A stretch of 39,089 nt of DNA from Coriobacteriia bacterium. GTDB taxonomy: Bacteria; Actinomycetota; Coriobacteriia; Coriobacteriales; UBA8131. Below, piece by piece: positions 6,957-37,854 of the stretch. Each line of letters opens with the position of its first letter. Positions within the stretch are counted from its first letter, which is position 1. Location: the NCBI GenBank assembly GCA_009784425.1, contig WRBR01000006.1:1-39089 (forward strand). Reading direction: 5' to 3'. The position numbers were made by a program, and so were the translations under genes. A model generated the notes under the pieces. It saw only the letters and a list, made by a program, of their open reading frames with translations. It had not been told where the DNA came from and did not search any database.

Positions 6957-8426
6957 ATGAGAACGAACGTAAGGGCTGGTTTTAAGCAGTCCGGAGGCTT
7001 TGGCATCAACATGTTCACAGATGATGAGCTCTACGCCCTCCATCTCTCTACTATGGAAGTCATGAACGACGTGGGCATCGGGATCAAGGATCCAGTTGCT
7101 CAAGAGGCATTGTATTCCGTTGGCTGTAGAGTCGACAAAGCAAAGGGGGTAGTACGCTTCCCAGCTTATGTGGTGGAAGACGCCATTCGTAAGGCACCGG
7201 CTTCTGTCACCTTTGCGGCAAGAAACCCCGAAAAAGACCACGTGCTCGAGGACAACCGTGTAGGATTCACCAATTTTGGTGAAGGCATCATGATCAATGA
7301 CATCTACACAGGTGAACACCGTCAAACGGTGAAGAAGGATGTTGCCCAGGCTGCCCTCATGGCTGACTGGTGTAGCGCCATCGACATCCATGAGCGCGCG
7401 ATTGCCGCCCAGGATACACCGGCCATCATCGCTCCTCTACATGAGTCACAGGTCAACATCACCAACACTTCCAAGCATTTGACGCAGGGCTGCGGAAACG
7501 TCCGTAATCTGCGGAGAATCCACAAGATGATGAGCTACATCGCCGGGTCTGAAGAGGCTTTCAGGGCTCGCCCAATCTATAGCACCATCACCTGCCCCAT
7601 CAGCCCCCTGCAAATAGCTCCTGAGTCGAGTGAGTTGATTATGGAATGTGCCCACTTGGGTATTCCCATCACCATTATCTCCATGGCGCTGGCAGGCGGC
7701 ACCACTCCCGTGACCCTGGCAGGCACCTTGATAACCCATAACGCAGAGGTGCTGGCTGCCATAACCTTGTCGCAGGCAACGGTTCCCGGCGCTCCCATAG
7801 TCTATGGTAGCTCCACCACCATCATGGACCTGAGGTACACCACCTCACCGGTAGGCTGTCCAGACTTGGCCATTATCAATGCAGCAGTAGCTAAACTGTC
7901 CCAATTCTATCGTTTGCCGAGCTGGGTTGCCGGTGGATAGGGGGATAGCAAAGTCGCCGACGGTCAAGCTGCTCACGAGAAGACACTCACCGCCTTATTA
8001 CCCGCCTTGGCAGGTGCCAATGTGATTTATGGTCTGGGAATGTTGGAAATGGGCATCACATTTGACTTCGCACAGCTCGTGATAGACAACGAGATCGCCG
8101 AAATGGTCAAGTACATAGTTAAGGGTATTGATATCAGCGATTACAACATGGCAACCAATGTGATCAAGGAGGTCGGCATTGGTGGCGAATTTGTAACGCA
8201 TGAGCATACCTATGACAACTTCAGAACCGCTCAGTCTCACTCTACCCTCTTTAATCGCGCCATGCGCGAAAGCTGGATGGCAGCAGGAGGAAAAGATCTG
8301 CTGGAGGCGGCAACTGAAAAGGCAAAATGGGTTCTGGAGAACCACAAGCCCGACCCACTACCCAGTGGCGCTGCTGAGCTGATGGAAGATATCATCGCCG
8401 AAGCCGCTGCTGAAGAAGGCGTTTAA
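6957..8426 (+). CDS. mttB: Trimethylamine methyltransferase MttB with in-frame amber (Pyl328)
   Basis: It transfers a methyl group from trimethylamine to the cognate corrinoid protein. The track splits it into 6957-7940 and 8007-8426, but both parts share one frame. TAG at 7938-7940 is flanked by PSWVAGG and GDSKVADGQAAHEK, the usual setting of pyrrolysine in MttB. The joined protein has 489 residues with Pyl at 328, close to the size and Pyl position of methanogen MttB (about 495 and 334). The start ATG has GGAGG at good spacing. The C-terminal part continues the TIM-barrel family through ANVIYGLGMLEMGITFD. A complete pyl cassette is present downstream, so this is a functional recoded gene rather than a pseudogene. 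Pyl is thought to orient and activate the methylammonium for attack by Co(I). Confidence 0.97.
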
Positions 8427-8481: not shown

Positions 8482-9870
8482 ATGACCAAAAAGTATCTAA
8501 CCAGATACGGAGATAACTACGTAGGAGAGCTCACCGAGGCTGAAATTCGCCAGGACATCGAAGACGGCACCCTGGATGCAGCTGATCGTGGACAAATCCC
8601 TGCCATGAGCCAAGACGAGATGGACTATCTCTACGAGATCATCACGAGTCCCCAAAAGATTGTCTCGGTTGAGCCCGGCAAGGAAGTGGTTGTTTCCTTT
8701 GATGCAGGAACCTTGAAGTTGCCAACCAGAAACGGCATCCCTATGGATCGCCTGCAGGCAGTCATCACGCAGGAGCGTGCCCTGGCTTCGGACAGCACTG
8801 AGCTCTGTCATGTTGACTACAGCTACAAGCCCATTAAACCCATCATCTCTGAAGAGCGCCAAGCCATGGAGCAGATTCAGCTGATGACGACGATTCCGGT
8901 GCTCTACGGTGCCATGCCCAATCTGGGGCTTTATACCAAGCCCGATGGACCCTGCGACAACTGGGCTGAACTCTTGCCTGCTGGCAAGATAACCGAGGCA
9001 ATGGAAGCCCAGGAAGAAGCGGTTGAACACGCAATCAAGGACATCGTCTTTGTGGCTTCTTCCATGATTGAAAGTGGAGCTGACGGCATCAATCTCGACA
9101 CCGTTGGTGCTTCCGGAGACGCCGATGTCAAGGCCAGCCTTGAGGCGGTTAGGATTCTGAGCAAGAAGTATCCCACCACCGGTTTTGAGGTGGGCATGGC
9201 CGGCGAGTTCAACCTTGGCATGCACGGTGAGCTCACCTTTGATGGCGAAGTACTTGCCGGTATGTACCCCCACAAGCAGGTGTTAATGGCCCAGCAGGCA
9301 GGTGTGGGCATTTTTGGCATGGCTGTTAACACCAACAGCAGTCAATCCCTTGCCTGGAACCTTGCCCGAGTGGTTACCTTTGCCAAAGAGACCGCAAAAG
9401 TTGCGACGATTCCCGTCCACGCCAATGTGGGCATGGGAGTGGGAGGCATTCCGCTTTCTATCATTCCTGCAGCAGACGCAGTCTCACGCGTGGACAAGGC
9501 ACTGGTAGAGATTGCAGGCCTTGACGGCCTCTAGGTAGGTGCCGGAGATACCTTCGGCATGGCAGTGACCCACGAGAGCACCGCTGGAATGGGCGGCATA
9601 AGAAGTGCCGGCGATCTGGTGTTCAGGATGGAACTGCAAAAGATGAAAATCAACGAAGCCAAGAAATATGTGGCTGAAAAACTACGCGTAAGCGTTATGG
9701 ATCTGGCTGACTGCGCCGTAATGAAAGACCTCCGTGAGGAGCTCAACATAGGCACCGTTCAGTCACGACCTGATGCAGGCGTGGGTATCCAAACAAAGTT
9801 CCGCATTGCAGAGCTGTTGGGTGTTCCTATTAACAGCGTTGATATGTTCAAAAGACAAGCTGGTCTTTGA
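8482..9870 (+). CDS. mtbB: Dimethylamine methyltransferase MtbB, copy 1, in-frame amber (Pyl351)
   Basis: It demethylates dimethylamine onto a corrinoid protein. ORF 8482-9534 ends IAGLDGL-TAG and continues in the same frame as VGAGDTFGMAVTHESTAGMGG to 9870, giving 462 residues with Pyl at 351, near the usual MtbB length of about 467. The first 20 residues (MTKKYLTRYGDNYVGELTEA) and the whole body are nearly the same as copy 2 at 14742. It lies 55 bp after mttB and 26 bp before a corrinoid gene, so it is in the same operon. A 7-bp stem loop starts six bases after the TAG (9541-9558), identical in design in copy 2. The start ATG follows AGAGGAAGG. Confidence 0.97.
9541..9558 (+). promoter_or_regulatory. 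Post-amber hairpin in mtbB copy 1
   Basis: GCCGGAG pairs with CTTCGGC (one G-U pair) around a four-base loop, six bases after the in-frame TAG. The same stem occurs after the TAG of mtbB copy 2. It may help amber read-through, or may simply reflect conserved protein sequence. Confidence 0.4.
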
Positions 9871-10730: not shown

Positions 10731-12524
10731 ATGACTAAACAGATGGAACCTTACCTCATGTCCGTCATTTCAAGTCGCCTGCAAAGCATCTGCCTCGAAA
10801 TGACCAACACCTTGATGCGCACGGCACGCTCTCAACTGATGAGTGTTTGCCACGACCTTTCAACCGCTATATGTGATCGCAATGGCGATGTGCTTGCCCT
10901 GGCTGAAAGCATACCGGTACATTGCGCAAACATGGGGTTAACCGTTAAGTACTGCTTTAATCACCCTGAGGGCATTAAAGCCGGTGATATGTTCTTGAAC
11001 AACTCTCCTTATCATGGCAATACCCACCATGCTGACTTCACCTATATTGCTCCCGTGTTCTCAAACGGAGAACTTCTGTTTTTTGCGGTAGCCAAGGGAC
11101 ATCAGGCAGACGTGGGTAATTCTATTCCCAGCACCTATCATGCCAACGCTAAGGACCTCTACGAAGAGGGTGCTATCAGCTGGCCTTGTGTAAAGGTTGA
11201 GAAGGATTACAAAGAGGTCCCCGATATTATCTCCATTGCAAAGGCCCGTATCAGGGTGCCGGAGATTTGGTACGGCGATCATCAAGCTTGTGTGGGCTCA
11301 GCCAGAACAGGCGAAAAGCGGCTCCAAGACCTGTGCTCTGAATACGGCAACAACCTCATGAAGGACTTTTGCGACGCCTACCATGCCTACGGCAGCAGGC
11401 GCATTCAAGAAGAGATTGCAACCTTGCCGGCTGGCACCTGGCACTATGACATAAAAAGTGACGCTATCAAAGGGCTCACTCCGGAGATAAACATCCACAT
11501 CAGTTGTGAGATAAAGCCGGATGAAGGCCGCATGATTATTGATTTAACTGACAACATAGATTCATTGCCCTGTGGCTTGAATATGTGTGAGGCTACGGTG
11601 CGTGGCAGCGCCGTGACCGGTATATTGAACCGCCTACCCAACGACATCCCCAGCAATGAAGGCTCTATGAAGCATATTGAGGTATTGATGCGCGAGGGGT
11701 GCATGATAGGAAAGGCGGTGGCTCCCTACTCATCATCTCTTGCAACCACAAATCTGGCTGACAGGCTTATCTCCGGGGTACAGGCTCTCATGAACCAGGT
11801 CACCGAAGAACGCGGTGTGGCTGAAGGCGGCGCAGTGCAGTGCCCTGCCGTATCGGTCATCTCGGGCAAGGACTGGCGCAGAAACAACCATCCCTTTGTC
11901 AACCAGATGTTTTGCGGCATGACCGGTGGCCCGGGTGTAAATGGCTTTGATGGGTGGGTTACATATCAGTATCCTTGCACCGGCGGAGCCTTGAACTGGA
12001 ACTCCGTTGAGACCTTGGAGCAACAGTATCCCATTCTCATTCTTGAAGAAGAGATTATCCCTGACTCCGTTGGACCCGGAAAGTTTGACTCTGCGCCCGC
12101 CTGCAAATTTGTACTGGCTCCGCGAGGGCACCCGGTAACCTGTGCCTATTCCTGCGACGGAATAGACAATCCGCCTATGGGAGCAGTTGGTGGCGGCAGA
12201 GGACGCGCCTCTGCAGCGTGGAAGTACACGGTGGCCGAAGGAGAGGCTTCGGCGCAGATCCTGCCGCCCTTTGCTGAGCCGACCATTGAGCTGGGTGACG
12301 CTATTGTCTCTGAGAGCTCCAGTGGCGGCGGTTATGGCGACCCTCTCACACGCGATCCTGCCCTGGTATGTCATCGTGTGAGAGAGGGCTGGATTACCGA
12401 GGAGTTTGCGCAACGGACCTACGGCGTAGTGGTTGATACCAGCGCTGAGAAATATCTCGTGGATGAGGAAGCAACCGCACGTCTACGCAAGGAACTTGCA
12501 GCTGAGAGGGGGGATGCTTTATGA
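10731..12524 (+). CDS. hyuB: Hydantoinase B / oxoprolinase family subunit
   Basis: A 597-residue HyuB-type catalytic subunit, the partner of ATP-binding HyuA. Together they catalyse ATP-dependent opening of N-methylhydantoin, 5-oxoproline or related rings. Typical family stretches include SVCHDLSTAICDRNGDVLALAESIPVH near the N-terminus, DMFLNNSPYHGNTHHADFTY with metal-binding His/Asp, and near the C-terminus GGGRGRASA and SSSGGGYGDPLTRDP. The ATG follows GGAGGAATAGGAGGGG. It overlaps hyuA by four bases (ATGA), so translation is coupled. Its place between two dimethylamine methyltransferase genes suggests that it releases a methylated amine or N-methyl amino acid precursor; the substrate is inference. 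Confidence 0.88.
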   Translation: MTKQMEPYLMSVISSRLQSICLEMTNTLMRTARSQLMSVCHDLSTAICDRNGDVLALAESIPVHCANMGLTVKYCFNHPEGIKAGDMFLNNSPYHGNTHHADFTYIAPVFSNGELLFFAVAKGHQADVGNSIPSTYHANAKDLYEEGAISWPCVKVEKDYKEVPDIISIAKARIRVPEIWYGDHQACVGSARTGEKRLQDLCSEYGNNLMKDFCDAYHAYGSRRIQEEIATLPAGTWHYDIKSDAIKGLTPEINIHISCEIKPDEGRMIIDLTDNIDSLPCGLNMCEATVRGSAVTGILNRLPNDIPSNEGSMKHIEVLMREGCMIGKAVAPYSSSLATTNLADRLISGVQALMNQVTEERGVAEGGAVQCPAVSVISGKDWRRNNHPFVNQMFCGMTGGPGVNGFDGWVTYQYPCTGGALNWNSVETLEQQYPILILEEEIIPDSVGPGKFDSAPACKFVLAPRGHPVTCAYSCDGIDNPPMGAVGGGRGRASAAWKYTVAEGEASAQILPPFAEPTIELGDAIVSESSSGGGYGDPLTRDPALVCHRVREGWITEEFAQRTYGVVVDTSAEKYLVDEEATARLRKELAAERGDAL

Positions 12525-14644
12525 GCAAGCACGTATGTGTTGATGTGGGTGGCACCTTTACCGACGCCGCAGTCTTAGATGCACGAGGGGTAGTACGCGT
12601 GTTTAAGGCTCCCACCACTCCCCATGATTGGACTGAGGGCATCATCGGATCCCTCAAAACTGCTGCTGAGTATTATCAGGAGGAGTTCTCTGACTTTTTA
12701 GCGAGTGCCAGCGTTGAGCTAGGCGGCCACCTCACCCACGGATCCACTATTGCCTCAAACGCAATCGTGGAGAAAAAAACCGGCAAGGTGGGCGTGCTGT
12801 GCACCAAGGGTTTTAGAGACGTATTCCTCTTTAGAGAAGGACCTAACAAGGGCCCCTTTGATATAGAGATTGCGTATCCTGAGCCGTTTGTGCCGCGTTA
12901 TCTTACTTTGCCCGTAGAAGAGCGCGTCAACAGCGAAGGCGGCGTTGAGACCCCTTTAAACGAGGATGATGTACGCAAGGCAGTAGAAACGCTTAAGGGT
13001 TACGAGGTAGAAGCTCTCTGTGTCTGCTTTCTCTGGTCTACCGTAAACGACAGCCATGAGCAAAGAACGGCAGCACTCATCAAGGAACTTTGGCCCGAGG
13101 TGGATGTGGTACTGAGCTCAGAGGTCAATCCGAGCGACCGGGAATACCGCCGCTGGGTTTCTGCTGTTATGGATGCCTCCCTCAGAAGGCTGATTTCTAC
13201 CTATGTAAGAACATTGAATGAGCGGCTGAGAGCATGTGGTTTTCTTGGCGAGATAGGCATGCTCAACACCTCCGGCGGAATCATCAGTGCCAGTGAAGTT
13301 GTGAAGAAGCCTTTGTACTCCCTGGATTCCGGGCCGTCAATGGCTCCGGTTGCGGGCAAGGTTTATGCAGAGCTGGAGTACAAGGATAAGAACGCAGTAG
13401 TCTGTGACATGGGTGGCACCACGTTTGACGTCAGCTGTGTCATCAACAGTCATATCTCTGTTTCTCGCGAGGCCCTGATAGGTGATGAGATTCCCGGCAT
13501 CTCGCGAGTCAGTGTACACAGTATTGGTGCCGGCGGCGGCTCCATTGCCTGGGTAGATAACGGCGGGATGATACGGGTTGGCCCTGTCAGTGCCGGATCC
13601 ATGCCCGGGCCGGCCTGTTACAATCGCGGCAGCGACCTGCCAACGGTTACCGACGCCAATCTGGTGCTTGGTTATCTGAACCCCAATAACTTCAATGACG
13701 GCAAAATGGAGCTGGCACCTGAGCGCTCGTACCGTGCCATTGAAGAACACATAGCCAAGAAGCTGGGCATCAACACACTTGAGGCGGCCTATGCCATATG
13801 GGCAACGGTCAATGCCAACATGATTACTGCCATTAAAGACATCACCATTTGGCAGGGAATCGATCCGCGTGGTTATACGATGATAGCGGGCGGAGGCGCC
13901 TGTGGCCTGCATGCCATCCCGCTGGCTGAGGGTTTGGAGATGCAGCGGCTGCTTATTCCACGTGTAGCCGGAGGCCTGAGCGCCTCTGGTGGTGTGCTCT
14001 CGGATACGGTCTGGGAAGACAGCTCGCGCTCTTTGACCTCAACGCGCAACTTTGACACCGAATCCGTCAACAAAACGCTCAAACACCTGAGAGAGGAAAG
14101 TCTCGACTTCTTTGAGCGCAACGGCATTGCCGAAGAGGATCGGCAAATTGAGTTCTACATGGAAGGGCGCTATCCCTTCCAGGTATGGGACCTGTCCATT
14201 GACATCACCGAATTGCTCAACAACGAACAGCTCTTTGATGAAGGCGGGTCTTTGGCCTTAGAAGAAACCTTCCATAGAGAATATGAACGCACCTTTACCA
14301 TCCGCTCGGATTCTGCAGTTGAGTGCGTATACTGGCGGGTCAAGGCCATTGGCAAAAATCACGCTGCTGATTTAATCAACACCAATCCCTGGCCTGAGGA
14401 TTCTCCTGATGACCCCTTGATTCCCTGCGGAGAGCGCAAGGTGTACTTTAAGCACTGGGGCTGGAACGAGGCAGTCTCCACCCCTATTTACACAGGATTC
14501 GACCTCAGCCGCGGACACAAGATAAAAGGACCGGCCATAATCGAAGAACCTACAACCACCATCGTTGTTCTTCCGGAATATACCCTGCGCGTTACCGACG
14601 CTCACAACTACCTGATAGAAGGGCTAAAGCAATCGCGAAGATAG
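12521..14644 (+). CDS. hyuA: Hydantoinase A / oxoprolinase family ATP-binding subunit
   Basis: A 707-residue HyuA subunit with CVDVGGTFTDAAVLDARG at the N-terminus, VCDMGGTTFDVS in the central ASKHA domain, and SIGAGGGSIAWVDNGG then GPVSAGSMPGPACYNRGG-like blocks that are hallmarks of N-methylhydantoinase A. ATP hydrolysis is coupled to amide ring opening by the partner HyuB encoded just upstream with a 4-bp overlap. It is much closer to classic HyuA than the stand-alone protein at 3043. It ends in TAG; reading this as Pyl would add only four residues before TAA, so here TAG is probably a plain stop. Confidence 0.88.
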   Translation: MSKHVCVDVGGTFTDAAVLDARGVVRVFKAPTTPHDWTEGIIGSLKTAAEYYQEEFSDFLASASVELGGHLTHGSTIASNAIVEKKTGKVGVLCTKGFRDVFLFREGPNKGPFDIEIAYPEPFVPRYLTLPVEERVNSEGGVETPLNEDDVRKAVETLKGYEVEALCVCFLWSTVNDSHEQRTAALIKELWPEVDVVLSSEVNPSDREYRRWVSAVMDASLRRLISTYVRTLNERLRACGFLGEIGMLNTSGGIISASEVVKKPLYSLDSGPSMAPVAGKVYAELEYKDKNAVVCDMGGTTFDVSCVINSHISVSREALIGDEIPGISRVSVHSIGAGGGSIAWVDNGGMIRVGPVSAGSMPGPACYNRGSDLPTVTDANLVLGYLNPNNFNDGKMELAPERSYRAIEEHIAKKLGINTLEAAYAIWATVNANMITAIKDITIWQGIDPRGYTMIAGGGACGLHAIPLAEGLEMQRLLIPRVAGGLSASGGVLSDTVWEDSSRSLTSTRNFDTESVNKTLKHLREESLDFFERNGIAEEDRQIEFYMEGRYPFQVWDLSIDITELLNNEQLFDEGGSLALEETFHREYERTFTIRSDSAVECVYWRVKAIGKNHAADLINTNPWPEDSPDDPLIPCGERKVYFKHWGWNEAVSTPIYTGFDLSRGHKIKGPAIIEEPTTTIVVLPEYTLRVTDAHNYLIEGLKQSRR

Positions 14645-14741: not shown

Positions 14742-16130
14742 ATGAGTAAAAAGTATCTCACCAGATACGGAGACAACTACCTCGAAGAGATGACAGAAGC
14801 AGAGATTCGCCAAGACATCGAGGACGGCACCTTAGATGCAGCAGATCGTGCGCAGATTCCTGCCATGACCTCGGACGACATGGATCACCTCTTTGAGATC
14901 ATCTCTAATCCCCAGAAGATTGTTTCGGTTGAACCGGGCAACGAAGTAGTGGTGACCTTTGACGCAGGAACCTTGAAGCTCTGCGTAAGAAGCGACATCC
15001 CCATGGACCGCCTGACAGCATGTGTGACCCAGGAGCGTGCGCTGGGCTCAGACAGCATTGAGCTCTGTCATGTTGACTACAGCTACAAACCCATCAAGCC
15101 CATCATTTCCGAAGAGCGCCAGACCATGGAGCAAGTACAGCTGATGACCACCATACCCGTGCTCTACGGCGCCATGCCCAACCTGGGGCTTTACACCAAA
15201 CCCGACGGCCCTTGCGGAAACTGGGCGGAGCTTTTGCCTGCCGGCAAGATAGCTGAGGCCAAGGAAGCCCAGGAAGAAGCAGTGCAGCATTCAATCAAGG
15301 ATATAGTCTTTGTGGCCTCTTCCATGATAGAAAGCGGAGCAGACGGCATCAATCTTGACACCGTGGGCGCTTCAGGTGATGCCGACGTTAAGGCAAGCCT
15401 TGAGGCGGTACGTATCATCAAGCAAAAGTACCCCACAACCGGCATTGAAATGGGCATGGCCGGCGAGTTCAACCTCGGCATGCACGGCGAGCTCACCTTT
15501 GACGGTGAGATACTTGCCGGCATGTATCCCCATCAACAGGTGAGAATGGCAGAACAGGCCGGCGTGGACATCTTTGGCCTGGTAGTCAACACCAACAGCA
15601 GCCAATCCCTCGCCTGGAACCTTGCGCGCTCCGTCACCTTAGCCAAGGAAACGGTTAAGGTGGCCAAAATACCCGTACACGCCAACGTTGGCATGGGAGT
15701 GGGCGGCATTCCGCTTTCCATCATTCCGGCAGCTGATGCCGTCTCGCGCGTAGACAAGGCACTGGTAGAGATTGCAGGCCTTGACGGCCTCTAGGTAGGC
15801 GCCGGAGATATCTTCGGCATGACAGTGACCCACGTGAGCACCGCTGGGATGGGCGGCATAAGAAGTGCCGGTGATCTGGTGTTAAGGATGGAACTGCAAA
15901 AAATGAAAATCAACGAAGCCAAGAAATTTGTGGCCGACAAACTGCGCGTGAGCGTCTCTGATTTAGCAGACTGCGCTGTTATGAAGGACCTCCGCGAGGA
16001 GCTCAACATCGGCACCGTTCAGTCAAGACCTGACGCAGGCGTAGGCATACAGACTAAGTTCCGCATTGCAGAGCTTTTGGGAATTCCTATCAACAGCGTT
16101 GACTTGTTTAAAAAGCACGCCGGCTTGTAA
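14742..16130 (+). CDS. mtbB: Dimethylamine methyltransferase MtbB, copy 2, in-frame amber (Pyl351)
   Basis: A second dimethylamine:corrinoid methyltransferase, 462 residues, exactly as long as copy 1 with Pyl again at 351. TAG at 15792-15794 lies between IAGLDGL and VGAGDIFGMTVTHVSTAGMGG. The two copies differ by scattered substitutions along the whole length (for example TSDDMDHLFEIISNP against SQDEMDYLYEIITSP), so the duplication is not very recent. It follows hyuBA by 97 bp and has no corrinoid gene directly after it; it probably uses the mtbC product at 9897. The hairpin after the TAG is kept (15801-15818). Start ATG with GAAGG upstream. Confidence 0.97.
15801..15818 (+). promoter_or_regulatory. 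Post-amber hairpin in mtbB copy 2
   Basis: GCCGGAG pairs with CTTCGGC around ATAT, beginning six bases after the TAG. Only a loop base differs from the hairpin in copy 1. Confidence 0.4.
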
Positions 16131-17072: not shown

Positions 17073-18068
17073 ATGAGTATCAATTTAGAAGGCAAGGTGG
17101 CTATTGTCACGGGTTCTGGACAGGGCATAGGTAAGGGCATTGCCGTTTACCTGGCGCGCCAGGGAGTCAAGGTTGTCACCAACAATCGAAAGCCGGGAGC
17201 AGGGTATCTGAGGCAGTACAAGAAGGAGGACATGCCCGAAAGCGACTGGAACCAGATGATAGCTCTGGCCGGTGACGCAGAGGACACCGCAGCCCTGATC
17301 AGAGCAGAGGGAGGAGAAGCAACCGCCTGTTTTGCTGACATATCACAGTGGTCGGAAGCAGAAAAGCTGGTCAATTGTGCCGTTGAAACCTATGGCTCAA
17401 TAGACATTCTTATCAACAATGCTGCCGGCATGGGTGGCGGCACCATCGAAGGCTGCACTGAGGAAATCTGGCTGGCACACATTGCACCCAAGCTGAACGG
17501 CTCGTTTTTCCTTATGCACTTTGCAGTGCCTCATATGATCAAGCAGGGCTCGGGGCGTATTCTCAACGCCAGCTCGGAGGCCTGGCTTGGGCTCATAGGC
17601 CAGGACGCCTACAGTGCAGCCAATGCCGGTGTGGTGGGACTTTCCTGGGCAGCAGCCAAGGAACTCTGGCGCCACGGTATCACCGTTAATGTCTTTTGTC
17701 CCCAGGGTGCCTCTCCGGCACATGCGGTTGAGTATAACGCCATGCTCCGCAAGGTCAAGGAAATGACAGGCAAGGATCCCGACCCCAACATACTCAGGGT
17801 TGTAGAGCACAATCATGGCGACCCGGTGGGCATAGGGCCAGCCATAGCCTACCTCTGCACAGAGGATGCAGCGCACATAAGCGGCGCCGTATTCTGCATT
17901 TATGCGTCCGGTATCGTCAAGTACTACAGCGATCCCGCGCCAGTTTCGCAGATTGCCCTGGAAGAAGGGCAAGCCCTCTGGACAATCGAGGATCTCAAGG
18001 TGGCCTTCCACCAGCAACTGCTGGGCGAGGACTATGTTGCTCCCGCCAGCAAGCCGCAATGGGGGTGA
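17073..18068 (+). CDS. SDR-family protein lacking the catalytic Lys
   Basis: A 331-residue short-chain dehydrogenase/reductase fold protein with the dinucleotide motif TGSGQGIG (residues 13-20), the NNAAG structural motif (115-119) and the active-site region NASSEAW...AYSAANAG. Tyr180 is present, but the Lys of the canonical YxxxK is Asn (184), so classical hydride transfer may be impaired or altered. It is longer than typical SDRs (about 250), with an insertion after the first strand-helix unit and an extra C-terminal tail of about 60 residues. The stop is followed at once by the ATG of the PheRS-like gene (TGAATG), so the two are translationally coupled. Substrate unknown. Confidence 0.85.
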   Translation: MSINLEGKVAIVTGSGQGIGKGIAVYLARQGVKVVTNNRKPGAGYLRQYKKEDMPESDWNQMIALAGDAEDTAALIRAEGGEATACFADISQWSEAEKLVNCAVETYGSIDILINNAAGMGGGTIEGCTEEIWLAHIAPKLNGSFFLMHFAVPHMIKQGSGRILNASSEAWLGLIGQDAYSAANAGVVGLSWAAAKELWRHGITVNVFCPQGASPAHAVEYNAMLRKVKEMTGKDPDPNILRVVEHNHGDPVGIGPAIAYLCTEDAAHISGAVFCIYASGIVKYYSDPAPVSQIALEEGQALWTIEDLKVAFHQQLLGEDYVAPASKPQWG

Positions 18069-19367
18069 ATGCAGATGATGCTGGGTAGACACCCCTTACA
18101 CCAGGCTGCAGACAGGCTGAAGAGAGCATTCCGGCAGCTGGATTTTGAGTTGATAGACAACGGCGAGGGCCTCGAAATCGAGAGCTTTGATTTGACGTAT
18201 GCTACCTGGGCAGAACCCGGAGAGCTCTTTGACTGGCAGAGCAGTCCTCTCAAGCTGAGGCACGGGTATTCGGTTTTGCGTACCCGGATTTTGCCAGTAA
18301 GACTTAAATCTGTGGCATCTCTGGCACAGGCTACCGGTTCGCGGTTTTTGGCCTTTGGGCGCGTGTACAAAGACGATGAGCAGCAGCCCATGCATTTTCA
18401 GATCGAAGGACTGGTGCTGAACGAATCCCAGACGCTAGAGGAGTTCCAGGCACTTTGGCAAAAGTTGGCATGCCAGCTCTTTGGCGCTGATGCAGATGCC
18501 CAGGTGGTGCCGCTAAACGAGCAGTCGCACCACATCAGTATCATCGATAAGCAGGAAAACAAGACCTACAGCCTCGGCTATGCAGGCCCGGCTTCTGCGC
18601 AAGCGCTCAAGGCATGTGGAGCCGAGGATGGATACGGCTGGGTCTTTGTCATCAATGTAGACCAGTATGCTCTGCAGTACTTTTCTCTCGAAGAAATATC
18701 GCAGTTCTACGCTAACGACCTTGCGTTGCTTAGTCAGTTCACGAATGAGGAGGCATCAGATGGTGACTCCCCGGCCCACAAGGCCATCGATGCGCTCAGG
18801 GCTATGGGCTATCAGGAAACCTGCGGAGCTGTATTGTACGAGGATGAGGCCTACCGCAAGATGAACATGATTCAAGAAGCCTGGGATAGAAACAACCAGG
18901 GTTATCCTCTGGTCAAGCCGTTGGGAGCGCTTACGGCGCCTCGCACGGTGCTGACTCCGGCACTCGAAGAAACGCTGGGGTTCAACTACAAGCAGGGAGC
19001 TACCGATGTCAAGGTGTTTGAGGTTGGTCACATCTACCTGCCCCAGGACACAGAAATCCTTCCCAAGGAGCACTTTGCCGTTTCAATGGGTGCCTACGGT
19101 CCGGACATGACGATTGAGTCGTTCAAAAAAGAAGTGGAAGCCTTCTTAGGCGCTATGGGCATAGGCAGACTCAAATATATTCCCACCGGCATGGCCACTG
19201 CCTACAAATGGAACGAGTGTCTGATAGTTATGAGCGCAGGTCAGTACCTGCACTGTAACTTTGGACGCATCCATGAGCTGGCTGCCGAGAACTACGGAAT
19301 AGGCTGCCCGGCCTATATGGCCAACTTTGAACTGACCGCCCTGGCAAACGCCCGCACCAACAAGTAA
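18069..19367 (+). CDS. PheRS-like alpha/beta fusion, degenerate synthetase paralog
   Basis: A 432-residue protein whose first 225 residues follow the catalytic core of phenylalanyl-tRNA synthetase alpha: HPL at the start, LRTRILPVRLKSV (70-82), the motif 2 region FLAFGRVYKDDEQQPMHF (93-110) with QIEGLVLNE, then GWVFVINVDQYALQYF (190-205) and FYANDLALLSQF (213-224). The last part corresponds to motif 3, but the normal glycine-rich GxGxxR is gone. Residues 235-425 resemble the PheRS beta catalytic-like domain: LRAMGYQETCGAVLY, LTPALEETLGFNYKQGATDVKVFEVG and GRIHELAAENYGI. No tRNA anticodon- or editing-type domains are seen. It is probably not a working synthetase; an amino-acid or carboxylate binding or ligase-like role with the adjacent SDR is possible. 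I recognise no named homolog. Confidence 0.72.
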   Translation: MQMMLGRHPLHQAADRLKRAFRQLDFELIDNGEGLEIESFDLTYATWAEPGELFDWQSSPLKLRHGYSVLRTRILPVRLKSVASLAQATGSRFLAFGRVYKDDEQQPMHFQIEGLVLNESQTLEEFQALWQKLACQLFGADADAQVVPLNEQSHHISIIDKQENKTYSLGYAGPASAQALKACGAEDGYGWVFVINVDQYALQYFSLEEISQFYANDLALLSQFTNEEASDGDSPAHKAIDALRAMGYQETCGAVLYEDEAYRKMNMIQEAWDRNNQGYPLVKPLGALTAPRTVLTPALEETLGFNYKQGATDVKVFEVGHIYLPQDTEILPKEHFAVSMGAYGPDMTIESFKKEVEAFLGAMGIGRLKYIPTGMATAYKWNECLIVMSAGQYLHCNFGRIHELAAENYGIGCPAYMANFELTALANARTNK

Positions 19368-19416: not shown

Positions 19417-21411
19417 ATGTCAGAACAATTTCCACATCTGCTAAAACCTGGCAAGATTGGTAAATGGGAGCTGCCCAACCGGGTTGTTGCCTCACCCATG
19501 GGTACACTTAACGGCGATTCGGGCGGCTTTGTCACCGATAGAGCTACCACGTATTACACCGAGTTGGCCAAGGGTGGCATGGGTCTGCTTGTTGTTGAGG
19601 CAACCCATATAGACACGCATCTCAGCAAAGCAGAAGACAACCAGCTTGGCATCTGGAGTAACGAGCACGTAACAGGAATGGCCAGGCTCGCGTCCTGCAT
19701 ACAGGATCAGGGTGTCAAGGCGGTGCTGCAGCTCTGTCACATTGGTCGACAGATTAGCCTGGCAGACCGCTGTGAGTCGCTCGGGCCGTCCGAGATGGTG
19801 GAAATGATGGGAGGCGTGTATCCTTTTCCCATCAGAGGCATCACCAGAGACGAGATTGCCCAGATGATTGAAGACTTTGCCACCTGCGCCTGGCGGGCAA
19901 AGATGGCGGGCTTTGACGGCGTGCAGGTTCATGGCGCGATCGGACATCTAATCAATATGTTCTGTACGCCTTTTTACAACCGTCGAACCGATGAATATGG
20001 TGGCACACCAGAAAACAGAATCCGCTTCTTTGTTGAGATCGTGGAGGCCATTCACAAAAAATGTGGTAAGGATTTTCCGGTTCTTGCGCGTATCACCGGC
20101 TGCGATTTTGACAGCGACCGCGGCTTGACGCTCGAAGAGGGCATTCTGCACGCAAAAATGCTGGAAGAAGCCGGCTGCGTGGCCATGCACATAGTGGGAG
20201 GCTCTCAGCGTAATATCCGGGTAATTAATTGTCAGTATGATCCCCGAGGCGACTTTGTCTGCATTGCCGAGTCATTGAAAAAGGCTGGAATCAAGGTGCC
20301 GGTTATCATAGACGGCGGGCTCTCTACTCCTGACATAGCAGAAAAGGCCCTGTCTGAAGGCAGGACGGACTTTGTTGGCCTGGGTAGGCCCCTGCTTGCC
20401 GACACGGAATGGGCCAAGAAGGCAAAGGAGGGCAGGCCAGAAGACATCATCCCCTGCATTCGTTGCGTTGTTGGCTGCGTAGGGCCGCTTGAAAAGTTCA
20501 ATGCCGCACACGGTCTGCGTTGCTCCGTCAACCCGCGCTGTAATATGGCAGGCCACCGCGAGGTAGCGCCCATCGATAGAAAAAAGAAGATCTGCGTCGT
20601 CGGCGGTGGACCGGCGGGTATGGAAGCAGCACGGCTGGCAGCGGTTCGCGGCCACGAAGTAACTCTTTACGAAAAGCGCAAGCTCGGCGGCATGATGCAT
20701 GAGGCAGCCTTTGACCTCAGCGTAAAGGAGGACATTCAGCTGCTGATTGACTACTACGTCATACAGATGGGCAAGTTGGGTGTCAAGGTAATTACCACAG
20801 AGGTCACCGCCAACGAGGTGGTTGCGGGGGGCTATGACGCCGTCATTGTTGCTACTGGCGCAAAGCCTGTTAGTTCCTATATTCCGGGATCCGATAATCC
20901 CAAGGTCATACCCCTTGTTGAGTATGCAGGAAACAGAGACTGCGAAGTGGGTGAGACCGTTTTGGTAGTGGGCGGTTGTTTTCCTAATGTGGAGATGGCC
21001 TATGCCCTGGCAAAAAAGGGAAAGCGCGTCATCATCACCACCCGTCGAGGCAAGAAGGGCTTTTTCCTGGAACTCGGCGAGGATAACAGTGGCCCCATGC
21101 AGCAGAGGCTCCTTGCTTTGATTATGCAATACAAAGTAGACGTAAGAATGGGCAAAAACGTAACGGAGATAACCGAGCAGGGTGTCATTCTTACCGATGT
21201 TGATACCAATGACAGTTATGAGCTTGCCTGCGATAGCATAGTGCTTTGCAGGGGCTACTCAGGAGGCGGCCCCAAGCTGTACAAGGAATTGCAGGGCAAG
21301 GTTGCAGAACTCTACAAGGCTGGCGACTGTCAGATGAAATCACGCTGCCTCGAGTACCGGGTCATCGATCACGCCATACTCGAAGGTTGGCAAGTAGGAA
21401 ACCGTGTTTAG
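19417..21411 (+). CDS. Old-yellow-enzyme / 2-enoate reductase-type iron-sulfur flavoprotein
   Basis: A 664-residue NAD(P)H-dependent flavoenzyme of the 2,4-dienoyl-CoA reductase, 2-enoate reductase and trimethylamine dehydrogenase family. The N-terminal FMN TIM barrel includes LPNRVVASPMGT, GVQVHGAIGHLINMF and NRRTDEYGGTPENRIRFF. The 4Fe-4S cysteines follow in CIRCVVGCVG...LRCSVNPRC. The C-terminal FAD/NAD domain has ICVVGGGPAGMEAARLAA and VLVVGGCFPNVEMAYALA. The family includes trimethylamine dehydrogenase, but the neighbours (SDR, MFS) suggest reduction of an organic substrate rather than TMA oxidation. It ends in TAG; reading it as Pyl would add a 14-residue tail. It follows the PheRS-like gene by 49 bp. 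Confidence 0.9.
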   Translation: MSEQFPHLLKPGKIGKWELPNRVVASPMGTLNGDSGGFVTDRATTYYTELAKGGMGLLVVEATHIDTHLSKAEDNQLGIWSNEHVTGMARLASCIQDQGVKAVLQLCHIGRQISLADRCESLGPSEMVEMMGGVYPFPIRGITRDEIAQMIEDFATCAWRAKMAGFDGVQVHGAIGHLINMFCTPFYNRRTDEYGGTPENRIRFFVEIVEAIHKKCGKDFPVLARITGCDFDSDRGLTLEEGILHAKMLEEAGCVAMHIVGGSQRNIRVINCQYDPRGDFVCIAESLKKAGIKVPVIIDGGLSTPDIAEKALSEGRTDFVGLGRPLLADTEWAKKAKEGRPEDIIPCIRCVVGCVGPLEKFNAAHGLRCSVNPRCNMAGHREVAPIDRKKKICVVGGGPAGMEAARLAAVRGHEVTLYEKRKLGGMMHEAAFDLSVKEDIQLLIDYYVIQMGKLGVKVITTEVTANEVVAGGYDAVIVATGAKPVSSYIPGSDNPKVIPLVEYAGNRDCEVGETVLVVGGCFPNVEMAYALAKKGKRVIITTRRGKKGFFLELGEDNSGPMQQRLLALIMQYKVDVRMGKNVTEITEQGVILTDVDTNDSYELACDSIVLCRGYSGGGPKLYKELQGKVAELYKAGDCQMKSRCLEYRVIDHAILEGWQVGNRV

Positions 21412-21550: not shown

Positions 21551-23029
21551 ATGAGTGATACAGCAAGTAATCTGAATGCATTTCAAAGATGCTCTACTAC
21601 CAAGAAAATGCTGACCCTTGTTGGTATTTACGTCTGCACGGTGTTTTCTATCATGCAGTCTTCGGGCGTTTCGATGGTATTGCCTATGGCGGCAGCTGAG
21701 TTTGATTTGGCTGCAGGTATCAATATTGCTGCTGGAGAGATCGGCCCGGCCACGAGCCTTTATTCATTGGCAGCCTCTTTGGCTGGTCCGGTGGGCTTGG
21801 TCCTCATGCCAATCTGGGGATATCTAGCAGCCCGCAGCCCCCACCTCAGGATACCGCTGCTTGCGTTTTCTGTGTTAATGGGTGCCGTAGCGCTTTTGAC
21901 TCGCGCTCTTGCAACCAACATCTTCATAGTAATAGCAACTGGTGCGCTGTACGGTTTTGTATCCGCTGGTGTGTTTGTCATAGGCTTCATGCTTATCAAG
22001 GACATGTTTCCCGCACAAAAGATCGGCATATACATGGGGCTCATTGGCACCATGATGGCCATAGGCTCTTTAGCAAGTCCGGTAATCACCGGCATGGTGA
22101 TTGCCTTTTTTGACTGGCGCGCTGCTTGCCACATGCTGTGGCCCTTCTTTCTTGTAGGCGCGCTATTGTTCTTCTTTGGTGCCAATATCAAGAAGGAGGA
22201 TGGCAAAGAACTTGTTTTTGTTTCAGGTAAGATCGATCTTGCCGGCATTGTTGCAGCAACCATCTTCCTAGCTACCCTTATCTGCGGCATTTCCTTTGGG
22301 TCTACCTTTATTCCCTTTGGAACCATGCAGAGCTTTGCCTGTTTTGGAGTTTCCCTTGTTTCTCTCGTCGTATTAATCTTTATCGTGATGAAGAAGGGCG
22401 CTGGCGCAGTTATTCCTTTGCCCGCCCTGAAGAATCGAAACACGGTTTCGTTCAGTCTGGCCAACTTCATTATGAATTTTGCTAATATGTTTGTGTTTTT
22501 CTTCCTGCCTGCCTATATCATGAACGTCATGCAACCAACTGACTTTGGCCTTGATCCTGCGGCGTGGGCAGGACTCGTCATGGCCTGTTTTGCAGTCTTT
22601 GGCCTATTCCTTGGCCCTATATTTGGCAATATGATCTCAAAATCAGGTAGTGCCCGTACCGTATTGCTCCTGGGCGCTGTTGCCCGGCTGCTTTTCCTGG
22701 TTTGCATGATATTCTTCCTTACCCCAGGATTCAGCATCTTTATTCTCATGGGCTTGGCTCTTGTTCTGGGCGGCGTGTACAGCGTCATGACTACCGCCTT
22801 TACTACCGGGGTGGCCATCATGACCCCCGACACTATTCGCCAACAATCCAATGCCGTGGTTCAGATGGGCCAAAATCTCGGCGGTGCCCTGGGTATTGCG
22901 GTTGGCGGTATCATAGTTGCGTCCTTTGGTTTTGTTGCCGGCATGCCGATAGCCTTTGTCGTGGCTGCAATTGCCGTTATCATCATGTTTGTGCCCATCG
23001 CTCTTTTGAAGAAGAGGCAACAGGGCTAG
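21551..23029 (+). CDS. MFS transporter
   Basis: A 492-residue polytopic membrane protein of the major facilitator superfamily with about 14 hydrophobic segments, as in the DHA2-type group. The loop after helix 2 is WGYLAARSPHLRIPLL and the second-half equivalent is GPIFGNMISKSGSARTVLLLG, both variants of the MFS signature. The N-terminus is a short cytoplasmic stretch. It sits 139 bp after the flavoprotein gene (with a small CCGGT/ACCGG hairpin between) and is closed by a strong hairpin, so it seems to be the last gene of the redox island. It probably moves the organic substrate of that island; the substrate is unknown. Ends in TAG. Confidence 0.9.
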   Translation: MSDTASNLNAFQRCSTTKKMLTLVGIYVCTVFSIMQSSGVSMVLPMAAAEFDLAAGINIAAGEIGPATSLYSLAASLAGPVGLVLMPIWGYLAARSPHLRIPLLAFSVLMGAVALLTRALATNIFIVIATGALYGFVSAGVFVIGFMLIKDMFPAQKIGIYMGLIGTMMAIGSLASPVITGMVIAFFDWRAACHMLWPFFLVGALLFFFGANIKKEDGKELVFVSGKIDLAGIVAATIFLATLICGISFGSTFIPFGTMQSFACFGVSLVSLVVLIFIVMKKGAGAVIPLPALKNRNTVSFSLANFIMNFANMFVFFFLPAYIMNVMQPTDFGLDPAAWAGLVMACFAVFGLFLGPIFGNMISKSGSARTVLLLGAVARLLFLVCMIFFLTPGFSIFILMGLALVLGGVYSVMTTAFTTGVAIMTPDTIRQQSNAVVQMGQNLGGALGIAVGGIIVASFGFVAGMPIAFVVAAIAVIIMFVPIALLKKRQQG

Positions 23030-23069: not shown

Positions 23070-23188
23070 TCTACAACAGAGGTTCTTTGTCTTCAATTAA
23101 AGTATGCGGTCTCTCTTTTCAGCTCAAGCTTATATAATATTCTGAGTAAGTGCTGGCGCTGGCCAAGCTGACCAGAAGAGGAGCATGT

Positions 23189-23893
23189 GTGATTAACGAG
23201 GCATACACTCTGGATCAAAGCGCACTGAAAAAAGGTGCGGAGCTCCTCACACATTTGTTAAATTGCGTCACGCAGGGCAAAGTCGATGACATCGAGGAGA
23301 GGTTTTCCAAGCCAGACTACTCGGAGCTGGCAGAGCTGACCATAGGAAACGACCTGATTCTCGCGCGTGCTACCCTCGAATTCATTCTTCCGCAGCTGGT
23401 GCGCGCTGCCATAAACGGGGGATTGTCCTGGTCGATTTCCAACGACATCTATTTCAGCTACAAAAAAGAACTGGTTCGCGCCGTGTCAGTGCAGAGAGTT
23501 CTTGAACTGCATGACCAGATATTTATGGAGTTTGCCAAAAAGACAGCGCAGCTCAGAGAGGACTACGGGTTCTCGCCTTTGGTGCGCAAATGCCGTGTCT
23601 ATGTGAGCGAACACATCTATGCGCCAATTACCGTATGCGAGATAGCGCAGGCACACAGCGTAAGCCCAAGCTATCTCTCAAGGACTTACAAAAAGGAGAC
23701 CTCAGAATCCATATCGGACTATATCCGTCGAAAAAAGATCACCGAGGCTCAGTGGCTGTTAACGCATACCTCACTGACGTTGACCCAGGTTTACATTAAG
23801 CTGGGATACTGTTCCCAAAGCTATTTTACCGAAGTCTTTCGCAAGGAAACCGGCATGACCCCCCGCTTCTACAGAACCCTCGGGCGCTCATAG
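23189..23893 (+). CDS. AraC-family transcriptional regulator
   Basis: A 234-residue regulator from the preferred GTG at 23189 (AGAGGAG six bases before it); the track start at 23150 has no site. The N-terminal 130 residues are helical and of unrecognised type. The C-terminal 100 residues are a two-helix-turn-helix AraC domain: ITVCEIAQAHSVSPSYLSRTYKKE, then LTQVYIKLGYCSQSYFTEVFRKETGMTPRFYR. It is set off from the MFS gene by a terminator and is convergent with the minus-strand DUF1638 group. A TATAAT hexamer lies upstream near 23134. It probably controls the redox island or the hyu/mtb genes (inference). Ends in TAG. Confidence 0.85.
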   Translation: MINEAYTLDQSALKKGAELLTHLLNCVTQGKVDDIEERFSKPDYSELAELTIGNDLILARATLEFILPQLVRAAINGGLSWSISNDIYFSYKKELVRAVSVQRVLELHDQIFMEFAKKTAQLREDYGFSPLVRKCRVYVSEHIYAPITVCEIAQAHSVSPSYLSRTYKKETSESISDYIRRKKITEAQWLLTHTSLTLTQVYIKLGYCSQSYFTEVFRKETGMTPRFYRTLGRS

Positions 23894-33839: not shown

Positions 33840-33879
33840 ATTAACTAGAAGGCTGTGCCTGGATTGGGAACTCGATTTG

Positions 33880-34710
33880 ATGCAATTCACGAAGAACCAG
33901 ATTCAAAGGTTAAGCGAGCTCGGTTGTGATTTTGACGCTGAGCACTCCTTTGCATCCGCAGATGCGAGGGAGCTGGCCTTCAAGGAGATGGAGCGCAGGA
34001 GCGTTGAGAAAAACCGGGCTGCCCTTCGTGATTTGAGGAAGGCCAAAGACGCGCCCTTTGTAAGTGCTCTGAGTGAGAGCATCTCGGCATTCTTGAGGGG
34101 TCTGGGCTTTCTGGAAGTTTCCACGCCCATCATCATTTCAAAGAGTTTTCTTTTGCGCATGACCATCGAAGATGACCATGCCTTGTTCAAGCAGGTGTTT
34201 TGGCTTGATGACAAAAGCTGCCTCAGGCCCATGCTGGCGCCAAATCTCTACGACATCTCCAAGCGGCTGCTTAACGTCTACGAAGCACCTCTCGGCGTTT
34301 TTGAGATAGGCCCTTGCTTTCGCAGGGAATCCCAAGGCAACAAGCACCTTGAAAGCTTCACGATGGTGAACTTTGTGGAATGGGGTGTTCTGGAGTCTCA
34401 GAAGACCGAGCGCCTCAAAGAGCTCATCTCCCTCTTTATGGAGCACGTAGGGCTGAGTGAATACTCCCTTGAAGAAGAAGACTCCGTAGTCTACGGCGAT
34501 ACAATAGACGTTGTTGTTGACGGCGTTGAGATTGCCTCGGGGGCTTTTGGTCCCCATCCACTGGACAGTAATTGGGATTACGCGGGCACCTGGATTGGTC
34601 TTGGCGCCGGCTTGGAGCGCATTGTTCTGATGCAAGAAAACCTGGATAGCATTCAAAAGACAGGGAGAAGCCTGCTCTATCTGGGAGGAATAAGTTTAAA
34701 ACTCAAGTAA
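33880..34710 (+). CDS. pylSc: Pyrrolysyl-tRNA synthetase catalytic subunit PylSc
   Basis: A 276-residue class IIc catalytic domain. Motif 2 is FEIGPCFRRES (141-151), preceded by LRPMLAPNLYDIS, and motif 3 is GLGAGLERIVL (240-250). The Asn that binds the Pyl side-chain carbonyl is kept (Asn164 in FTMVNFVEW), while the Cys two residues on in archaeal PylS is Val166; Tyr205 (VVYGDT) matches the gating Tyr of the mobile loop. It lacks the N-terminal tRNA-binding domain, which is encoded separately as pylSn at 37847. The track start TTG 33877 is only one codon longer; ATG 33880 is chosen, though its ribosome site is weak. It heads pylSc-B-C-D-Sn. Confidence 0.96.
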   Translation: MQFTKNQIQRLSELGCDFDAEHSFASADARELAFKEMERRSVEKNRAALRDLRKAKDAPFVSALSESISAFLRGLGFLEVSTPIIISKSFLLRMTIEDDHALFKQVFWLDDKSCLRPMLAPNLYDISKRLLNVYEAPLGVFEIGPCFRRESQGNKHLESFTMVNFVEWGVLESQKTERLKELISLFMEHVGLSEYSLEEEDSVVYGDTIDVVVDGVEIASGAFGPHPLDSNWDYAGTWIGLGAGLERIVLMQENLDSIQKTGRSLLYLGGISLKLK

Positions 34711-34717
34711 AAGTGAG

Positions 34718-35800
34718 ATGAAGAACATGGACGTCAGTTTAGCGGGCATCAGCTCGCTGTTGAGCACAAATCTGAATAAAGACGAGTTATTCGCAAAAGC
34801 CCGGCAGGCCAGGTTTGAGCATTTTGGCAACGAAGTCTTTGCCTATGGCTTCAACTACTTTTCTACCTATTGCTCAAACCACTGCAGCTTTTGTTACTAC
34901 CAAAGTGATAATGCCCATACCATTCGCTATCGCAACAGCACCGAGCAGGTGGTTGAGGATGCAAGACGCTTGGCGGATTCCGGTGTTCACCTGATAGATT
35001 TGACTATGGGAGAAGATCCCTACTACCAGCAGCACATCGAGAGGCTCGCTGACCTGATCCAGAGCGTTAAAAGCGCCACCGGTCTTCCTGTCATGATATC
35101 ACCGGGTGTTTTGGAGGCTTGGCAATTACGTCTCCTTAAGGAGGCAGGCGCTACCTGGCTTGCTCTCTACCAGGAAACCTTTGACAAGGCTGCATTTGAG
35201 AGACTTCGTATCTGCCAGTCCTTTGAGGCTCGGCTGCGAGTCAAAGAAGAAGCGATAAAAGCTGGGCTCTTGGTTGAAGAGGGCCTTTTGACCGGCTGGG
35301 GCGACAGTTGCGAAGACGCGGCTGCCTCCATCCTTGCTATAAACAGCACTCACCCAACGCAGGTGCGCGCTATGTCTTTTGTTCCTCAGCCAGGTACGCC
35401 ACTTGAGAGCTGGCCTGCAGCTGACAGTGAGCGGGAGCTCTTGATAATCGCTCTTCTCAGGCTGCTGTATCCCCACAAGCTTATCCCGGCATCCCTGGAT
35501 GTTGAGGGACCAAAAGGTCTTGAAGACCGCTTAAATGCCGGAGCAAACGTCATCACTTCACTGATTCCGCCGCAATCAGGCCTTGTGGGGGTAGCGAGCA
35601 GGGATGACATCAAAGACGGAGGGCGGAGCCTGCCTCAGATTCAGACGATACTTGACAATGCCGGGCTCAAGCTGGCTTCAAGCGCTGGTTATCAGGCATA
35701 TATCCAGGCGGCCTTGGACGAGCATGTTCGTTTTGGACGTGCGGACACAGAGACTTCACCTACTGATTTTTGTGCGCGTGAACACGCCAAGGTGTGGTGA
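34718..35800 (+). CDS. pylB: 3-Methylornithine synthase PylB (radical SAM)
   Basis: A 360-residue radical SAM mutase that turns lysine into (3R)-3-methyl-D-ornithine, the first step of pyrrolysine synthesis. The cluster motif CxxxCxxC is Cys52, 56 and 59 in STYCSNHCSFCYY. Downstream DLTMGEDPYY, GLLTGWGDSCED and FVPQPGTPLE suit the BioB/HydE/PylB barrel. The start could be ATG 34718 or ATG 34727; the first lies 7 bp after pylSc and neither has a strong site. The end is eight bases before pylC. Confidence 0.95.
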   Translation: MKNMDVSLAGISSLLSTNLNKDELFAKARQARFEHFGNEVFAYGFNYFSTYCSNHCSFCYYQSDNAHTIRYRNSTEQVVEDARRLADSGVHLIDLTMGEDPYYQQHIERLADLIQSVKSATGLPVMISPGVLEAWQLRLLKEAGATWLALYQETFDKAAFERLRICQSFEARLRVKEEAIKAGLLVEEGLLTGWGDSCEDAAASILAINSTHPTQVRAMSFVPQPGTPLESWPAADSERELLIIALLRLLYPHKLIPASLDVEGPKGLEDRLNAGANVITSLIPPQSGLVGVASRDDIKDGGRSLPQIQTILDNAGLKLASSAGYQAYIQAALDEHVRFGRADTETSPTDFCAREHAKVW

Positions 35801-35807
35801 GAGTGCC

Positions 35808-37061: not shown

Positions 37062-37854
37062 ACTCTCTTCAGACCATATCAACTTGATAAACCAACGCCT
37101 GCCCAAGCTCGAAGAGCATTATCAGTCGATCACCGGCAAAAGCGTTCTTGAGATAGCACACTTTGCCTCCGGCACTGATTTTTTGCCTCTTGAGCAACGC
37201 AGTAAGCTTACCGTTGCCAGTATCCCTATTTCTTGTGGCGACGGAATCATCGGTGATTTTTCTGAGACCGTAGCGTTGGTCTTGAAAGAGTTTGCCGGTG
37301 TGAATACCTTTGTAACCGAATGCACGGATGTGGCCGGCTTCAATGAGGCTCTCGTCAAAAAAGCGGACATGGTCTTTATGGCAGATGACAAAGTTTGCCT
37401 CTGCTTAAACCTCCGCACCGGCGCACATTCCGACAACGGCTTTGCCACGGGTCGCGGCTTTGCCGCACTTCTCTACCTGAGTGCCCACGAGAATATCACC
37501 GAAGAAGTGCTCGTTCTTGGGGCCGGTAAGGTTGGTGCCGGCGCGTATCATTTTCTTCAAGCCAAACATGTCCCGGTTCGCTGGTATGATCTAAAGGAAT
37601 CATCGCCCCACGGTTTAGATGCACAGCTCCTGGCCGGCGACTGGAAAAAGCGGGAGTGGAACTACATCATCGACGCCACTACCAGCCCCTCCTTCATTGG
37701 CGCAGACCAAATCAAGGCGGGCGGGATAATCTCTGCCCCCGGCATCCCCTTTGGCGTGAGCAATGCGGCTTACAAAAAAGCCGGACTGGTAATCCGTGAT
37801 GAGCTGGAGACAGGCATCATGTCAATGTTTTGCGAGGCATCAAAACATGCGTAA
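37054..37854 (+). CDS. pylD: Pyrrolysine synthase PylD
   Basis: A 266-residue dehydrogenase that oxidises 3-methylornithyl-lysine; the product cyclises spontaneously to pyrrolysine. The NAD-binding loop VLGAGKVGAGA lies at about residues 154-164. The N-terminal domain matches the PylD family (SIPISCGDGIIGDFSETV). The C-terminus SAPGIPFGVS is also typical. It overlaps pylC by eight bases and pylSn by eight bases, so translation of the three is coupled. Confidence 0.96.
   Translation: MTRLSSDHINLINQRLPKLEEHYQSITGKSVLEIAHFASGTDFLPLEQRSKLTVASIPISCGDGIIGDFSETVALVLKEFAGVNTFVTECTDVAGFNEALVKKADMVFMADDKVCLCLNLRTGAHSDNGFATGRGFAALLYLSAHENITEEVLVLGAGKVGAGAYHFLQAKHVPVRWYDLKESSPHGLDAQLLAGDWKKREWNYIIDATTSPSFIGADQIKAGGIISAPGIPFGVSNAAYKKAGLVIRDELETGIMSMFCEASKHA

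Follow-up and report, generated by a model that had tools for sequence, protein, structure and literature searches.

What is an open reading frame that resembles both subunits of phenylalanyl-tRNA synthetase (PheRS) doing between two genes for redox enzymes, on a contig that also carries genes for pyrrolysine? We addressed this question for a 39,089-nucleotide stretch of DNA from a Coriobacteriia bacterium (hereafter the window). We use the name PTL for the family formed by the open reading frame at 18069-19367 and its relatives. Very probably, PTL has its role outside translation, lacks adenylation of the PheRS kind, and serves a module made of an OYE-family flavoprotein and an SDR-family protein. 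The features discussed are as follows.

17073..18068, + strand: SDR-family protein of 331 amino acids, first gene of the module (Pfam adh_short, 4e-38)
18069..19367, + strand: PTL open reading frame, 432 amino acids from ATG to TAA, a fusion of a PheS core and a PheT catalytic-like domain
18081..18740, + strand: alpha half of PTL (residues 5-224), homologous to the PheS catalytic module (PF01409 and PheS matches in the PDB)
18357..18386, + strand: degenerate motif 2 (GRVYKDDEQQ), placed by alignment with PheS of known structure
18636..18683, + strand: degenerate motif 3 (GWVFVINVDQYALQYF), with GxGxxR lost, from the PheS alignment
18777..19334, + strand: beta half of PTL (residues 237-422), homologous to the PheT B6-B7 catalytic-like module (PF17759 and PheT alignment)
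18834..18902, + strand: family signature YxKMNMxxxxWDxNNxG (residues 256-278), 11 of 23 positions invariant
19417..21411, + strand: OYE/2,4-dienoyl-CoA-reductase-like flavoprotein of 664 amino acids, third gene of the module (Pfam Oxidored_FMN, 1.5e-69)
21551..23029, + strand: MFS transporter, next downstream of the OYE gene (Pfam MFS_1, 9e-31)
23150..23893, + strand: AraC-family regulator (Pfam HTH_18, 5e-20)

Protein architecture and the synthetase sites

Two Pfam families were identified in the window PTL, PF01409 (67 bits) and PF17759 (75 bits), each scoring well beyond its cut-off. Matches to the NCBIfam models are partial and far below theirs (45 of the 237 bits of the pheS cut-off, and 38 of the 403 bits for pheT). 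A coiled-coil arm and B1-B5, editing or FDX-ACB parts were not identified in the Pfam search, and alignment with PheT places the end of the protein before FDX-ACB. Thus, in PTL the PheS catalytic module leads straight into the PheT catalytic-like module, in agreement with the original prediction of a PheS-like and PheT-like fusion that lacks tRNA-binding and editing parts. The stop codon of the SDR gene abuts the start codon of PTL (TGA|ATG), so the translational coupling that had been predicted for the two genes is plausible.

The class II PheRS fold, on which the original prediction depended, is present in AlphaFold2 models of two different members (pLDDT 77.5 and pTM 0.82 for the window PTL; pLDDT 81.8 and pTM 0.85 for the relative in genome G317), which were built on shallow alignments of 8 and 9 sequences. 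The best PDB matches of both models in Foldseek are PheRS alpha chains (E about 8e-15). PheRS beta chains and SepRS come next, and the search with the G317 model also lists PylRS; each of these single-chain matches covers one half of PTL and not the whole alpha-beta arrangement. At the sequence level, the matches to SepRS (E 4e-5) and PylRS (0.09) are weak.

Nine PTL members were aligned with PheS chains of known structure from Acinetobacter, E. coli and Staphylococcus, and with the PheS of the window genome itself. The roles of the PheS motif residues are established for the T. thermophilus and E. coli enzymes. The ATP-binding arginine of motif 2 (GRVYR) is absent from all nine members (the window has lysine, the relatives have aspartate, histidine or other residues), and the Thr-His that follows it is gone. 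Motif 2, which had been called recognisable, is so only in part. The degeneration described for motif 3 is confirmed in the window, where GxGxxR is lost, and the arginine is missing in eight of the nine members; the ninth (L006) has an arginine at this position but not the glycines. The HTS/QTS and FPFTEPS segments are lost or deleted throughout the alignment, and the QxEG site is complete in the window PTL only. In the Phe-pocket signature (HTS, QxEG and FPFTEPS) and the ATP arginines, PTL departs from PheRS. Given the loss of the ATP- and Phe-site signatures, we infer that PTL makes no adenylate and charges no tRNA.

In common with bacterial PheRS, whose CAM/CLM architecture has been described (PMC3275996), PTL has the fold and homology of both halves (the PheS catalytic and PheT B6-B7 modules) and the alpha-then-beta order of pheST. 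It differs from PheRS in being a single chain, in the absence of the coiled-coil arm, B1-B5, editing and FDX-ACB parts, and in the loss of the ATP and Phe signatures.

Distribution of the family and its gene neighbourhood

Relatives of PTL, alignable over the full length at 32-39% identity, were identified in genomes of Coriobacteriales and Lachnospiraceae. The family is rare, occurring in 6 of the 301 genomes sampled from the order, in two of the 397 genomes of a Lachnospiraceae set (the centre genome included) and in one of 399 sampled genomes of the centre genome's phylum, namely the centre genome itself. PTL was absent from searches of plasmids, phages and viral contigs. Ten PTL loci were examined in all, mostly from metagenome-assembled genomes; one further candidate (L009) proved to be a true PheT. 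The name 'PheS-related mystery ligase SrmL', in use at NCBI, may be a lead, but no SrmL-type NCBIfam family matches any of eight PTL members (E <= 1).

PTL is not the sole PheRS of its host, a possibility that the original prediction had named as fatal to it. A different contig of the window genome carries a complete PheS gene (310 bits) next to pheT, and a separate PheS was found in all ten PTL genomes, although the matches in two of the nine others fall below the curated cut-off (234 bits, or fragments). In one Lachnospiraceae genome (G384) there are two pheS matches (C59:41649-42551 and C110:18354-19265), one of which has an in-frame TGA. An in-frame TGA also occurs in the PTL copy of G061, a complete genome of the order (L029:9664-9666), with the frame open on both sides. 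It may be a recent nonsense change, a sequencing error or something else. Selenocysteine is judged unlikely at this position, as the aligned residue is a variable histidine or arginine and a one-base change from an arginine codon would explain the TGA.

In the window, the genes lie in the order SDR-PTL-OYE in one direction, followed by the MFS transporter and the AraC regulator. The original prediction had proposed a survey for SDR genes paired with PheRS-like genes. This pairing recurs at eight of the nine other loci, and the OYE gene, which like the beta-half signature had gone unremarked, recurs at all nine. Counting the window, OYE (19417-21411 there) is beside PTL at all ten loci and SDR at nine, the tenth being cut by the end of its contig. 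Since PTL was the only query by which the loci were gathered, these neighbours were not selected for. The OYE copies at the nine other loci are 55-61% identical to that of the window, and the window SDR is 49-61% identical to the SDRs at the eight. Among 201 sampled genomes of the order, OYE orthologs scoring above 900 bits occur in four PTL genomes only. SDRs of at least about 1.8 bits per position occur in three PTL genomes (241 genomes searched); the SDR relatives of G092 and G260, neither of which has PTL, are more distant. An OYE protein in G047, considered as a member of a PTL-less module, is a more distant paralog (709 bits) with no SDR or PTL in 3.9 kb. In G092, the SDR relative (L056:9161-10495) continues into a C-terminal region that appears cupin-like by eye, and a TetR-like gene, not PTL, adjoins it.

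Both enzymes have altered catalytic positions, which suggests that the substrate is unusual. The window SDR has Tyr180 but, in place of the lysine of the canonical YxxxK motif, Asn184, and all eight aligned SDRs read YSxx[N/T] here. The loss of the lysine is not specific to the PTL module, because the SDR relatives in G092 and G260 also have asparagine. The OYE protein retains the cysteines of the Fe-S type. The active-site tyrosine and histidine have known roles in dienoyl-CoA reductase; in all nine OYE proteins compared, the tyrosine is replaced by histidine (His177) and the WH stretch reads GG or AG. The best PDB match of the window OYE is 6qkg ('NCR', 300 bits), ahead of 2,4-dienoyl-CoA reductase (234 bits). 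We take 6qkg to be 2-naphthoyl-CoA reductase, a CoA-ester reductase.

The remaining neighbours vary. At the nine loci other than the window, an XRE-type regulator adjoins PTL and is divergently transcribed. This regulator (L046:10356-11378 and equivalents) has a C-terminal region of about 270 amino acids that matches no Pfam family. It was not identified in the window genome, the assembly of which is about 86% complete. The AraC protein of the window is unrelated to it and possibly takes its place. The MFS transporter has no match at the nine other PTL loci and thus, among the loci compared, occurs in the window version of the module only.

The activation residues are lost and the same redox neighbours accompany PTL in all relatives compared; thus, PTL has probably left translation, and the repurposing that had been proposed is supported as probable.

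Possible roles of PTL

Of 432 positions, 52 are invariant among nine members, and they are more frequent in the beta half (34 of 196) than in the alpha half (18 of 224). They concentrate in residues 256-299 (16 of 44, compared with 36 of the other 388; odds ratio 5.6, p = 7e-6, a value that is only indicative because the stretch was picked after seeing the alignment). The signature lies in this stretch. It aligns with a PheT segment that is about three residues shorter, and was thus remodelled rather than newly inserted. Its pLDDT is below 50 in both models, as it should be if the segment is mobile or becomes ordered by a ligand, although with alignments so shallow the cause may be technical. 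Values of dN/dS (0.15 for L005/L006 and 0.17 for G071/G317, both rough since dS is 1.2-1.5) indicate that the gene is under purifying selection. Mean identity between loci is 0.42 for PTL and 0.44 for the XRE-type regulator, compared with 0.66 for OYE and 0.62 for SDR; PTL and the regulator therefore diverge faster than the two enzymes. Divergence correlates between all pairs of module genes, most strongly between PTL and the regulator (r = 0.94), and shared descent alone would produce such a correlation.

Synthetase paralogs repurposed outside translation are already known. HisZ, a HisRS paralog without adenylation activity, regulates HisG, and asparagine synthetase A, PoxA/EpmA and the aa:CP ligases are synthetase cores reused outside translation (PMC9437257). 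Like HisZ, PTL is a class II synthetase paralog without the adenylation residues, and it appears tied to metabolic enzymes through its gene neighbours; unlike HisZ, it derives from PheRS rather than HisRS, and SDR and OYE genes rather than hisG lie beside it. Asparagine synthetase A, PoxA/EpmA and the aa:CP ligases keep the adenylation chemistry, whereas PTL lacks the residues for it and an intact ATP site. SepRS and PylRS, class II relatives with weak profile and fold matches to PTL, are functional synthetases, whereas PTL is closer to PheRS and is unlinked to Pyl genes elsewhere. A 2022 review of the functions of duplicated members in 15 synthetase families has neither PheRS nor phenylalanyl in its main text (PMC9437257). 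In open-access full text (most subscription papers lie outside this scope), we found no PheRS-like protein of the PTL type, and no PheS family protein or gut OYE/SDR/synthetase cluster of relevance. PTL would be a clear case of PheRS co-option with both subunit cores in one chain, and it offers a natural test of the uses of a catalytically degenerate class II core. Gut Coriobacteriia form equol from daidzein with an OYE-family reductase and an SDR. To our knowledge, such gut pathways of OYE and SDR enzymes have no synthetase-like member, and they differ from the PTL module in that OYE and SDR of the latter have altered catalytic positions. The OYE, SDR and PTL genes, usually with the XRE-type regulator, form a redox module of gut bacteria that is small and open to testing.

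The reading that we tentatively prefer is that PTL is a ligand-binding partner in the OYE-SDR redox pathway, neither adenylating nor catalytic, by a logic like that of HisZ. Most likely, a duplicated pheS-pheT pair fused, keeping only the PheS catalytic and PheT catalytic-like modules, and the single chain would mimic the alpha-beta core of PheRS. The presumed working part is the alpha-beta cleft, which the beta half would close with its invariant KMNMxxxxWDxNN segment. The cleft may bind a small pathway metabolite, probably aromatic or amino-acid-like, and PTL could act as a substrate-presenting or allosteric subunit of OYE and SDR. The argument draws on the HisZ precedent, the fate of the active site and the divergence of PTL, which is faster than that of OYE and SDR, as expected of a binding partner more than of a catalyst. 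None of these is decisive. Of the original suggestions, a sensor may hold if it is taken to mean a protein that binds a ligand without being an enzyme.

The invariant polar cluster would also fit a new active site. PTL would then be a true enzyme that needs no ATP, with its site around KMNMxxxxWDxNN, and would catalyse a step that comes between the reactions of OYE and SDR (e.g., isomerisation, hydration or hydrolysis). We consider this unlikely but the main rival: a single segment holds a cluster of invariant Tyr, Lys, Asn, Trp and Asp residues, two enzymes are the constant neighbours, and PTL belongs to the SDR-PTL-OYE operon even in the window genome, where no XRE-type regulator was identified. 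Yet the segment has its homologue in the catalytically inactive domain of PheT and is not a new insert, PTL diverges faster than its enzyme neighbours, and HisZ and other class II relatives that no longer adenylate tend not to be catalysts. The fuller version, in which the formerly inactive PheT-like half gained the new site and gut Coriobacteriales and Lachnospiraceae use it for one step in an OYE-SDR pathway not yet described, seems rather unlikely. A regulatory role, in which PTL detects a metabolite of the pathway and acts with the neighbouring regulator on transcription, would fit the correlation of r = 0.94 and the divergent XRE-type gene adjoining PTL at nine loci. It is nevertheless improbable, as PTL has no recognised DNA-binding domain and still lies between SDR and OYE in the window genome, where the regulator was not found (in about 86% of the genome) and the AraC protein is unrelated to it.

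There is likewise a small chance that PTL is still a carboxylate-activating ligase, adenylating an unusual acid through a rearranged site. The window protein keeps PheS traces (GRVY, QIEG and a lysine at the position of the motif 2 arginine), and no acid-activating enzyme was recognised beside an OYE protein whose best PDB match we take to be a CoA-ester reductase. But the motif 2 arginine is lost in nine of nine members, the motif 3 arginine in eight of nine, and HTS and FPFTEPS in all. The ligase role that had been among the original suggestions is thus disfavoured, because the signatures of both the ATP site and the amino-acid site are lost across the family. Low identity between members and the in-frame TGA in the G061 copy could point to a decaying pheST duplicate without function. 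This is very improbable given a dN/dS of about 0.15, reading frames intact at all but one of the ten loci, a gene order strictly kept across two phyla and the invariant signature.

Pyrrolysine genes in the window

We identified a bacterial-type Pyl set at 33877-38137, consisting of PylSc, PylB, PylC, PylD and PylSn. No tRNA was found in the window by ARAGORN or Rfam. An MttB gene and two MtbB genes (6957-8426, 8482-9870 and 14742-16130) have in-frame TAG codons (at 7938, 9532 and 15792), and each of the three has a match to the PYLIS element. The original prediction had tied the PheRS-like protein to this pyrrolysine system. That tie is not supported at the family level: the window PylSc, PylB, PylC, PylD, MttB and MtbB have no tblastn match in the locus DNA of the nine other PTL loci, where OYE is found nine times and SDR eight times. 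Because these loci lack pyl genes nearby, the shared contig is probably coincidental. Between the methylamine genes (10731-14644) lies a hydantoinase B/A pair that resembles caprolactamase subunits, with matches below the curated cut-offs.
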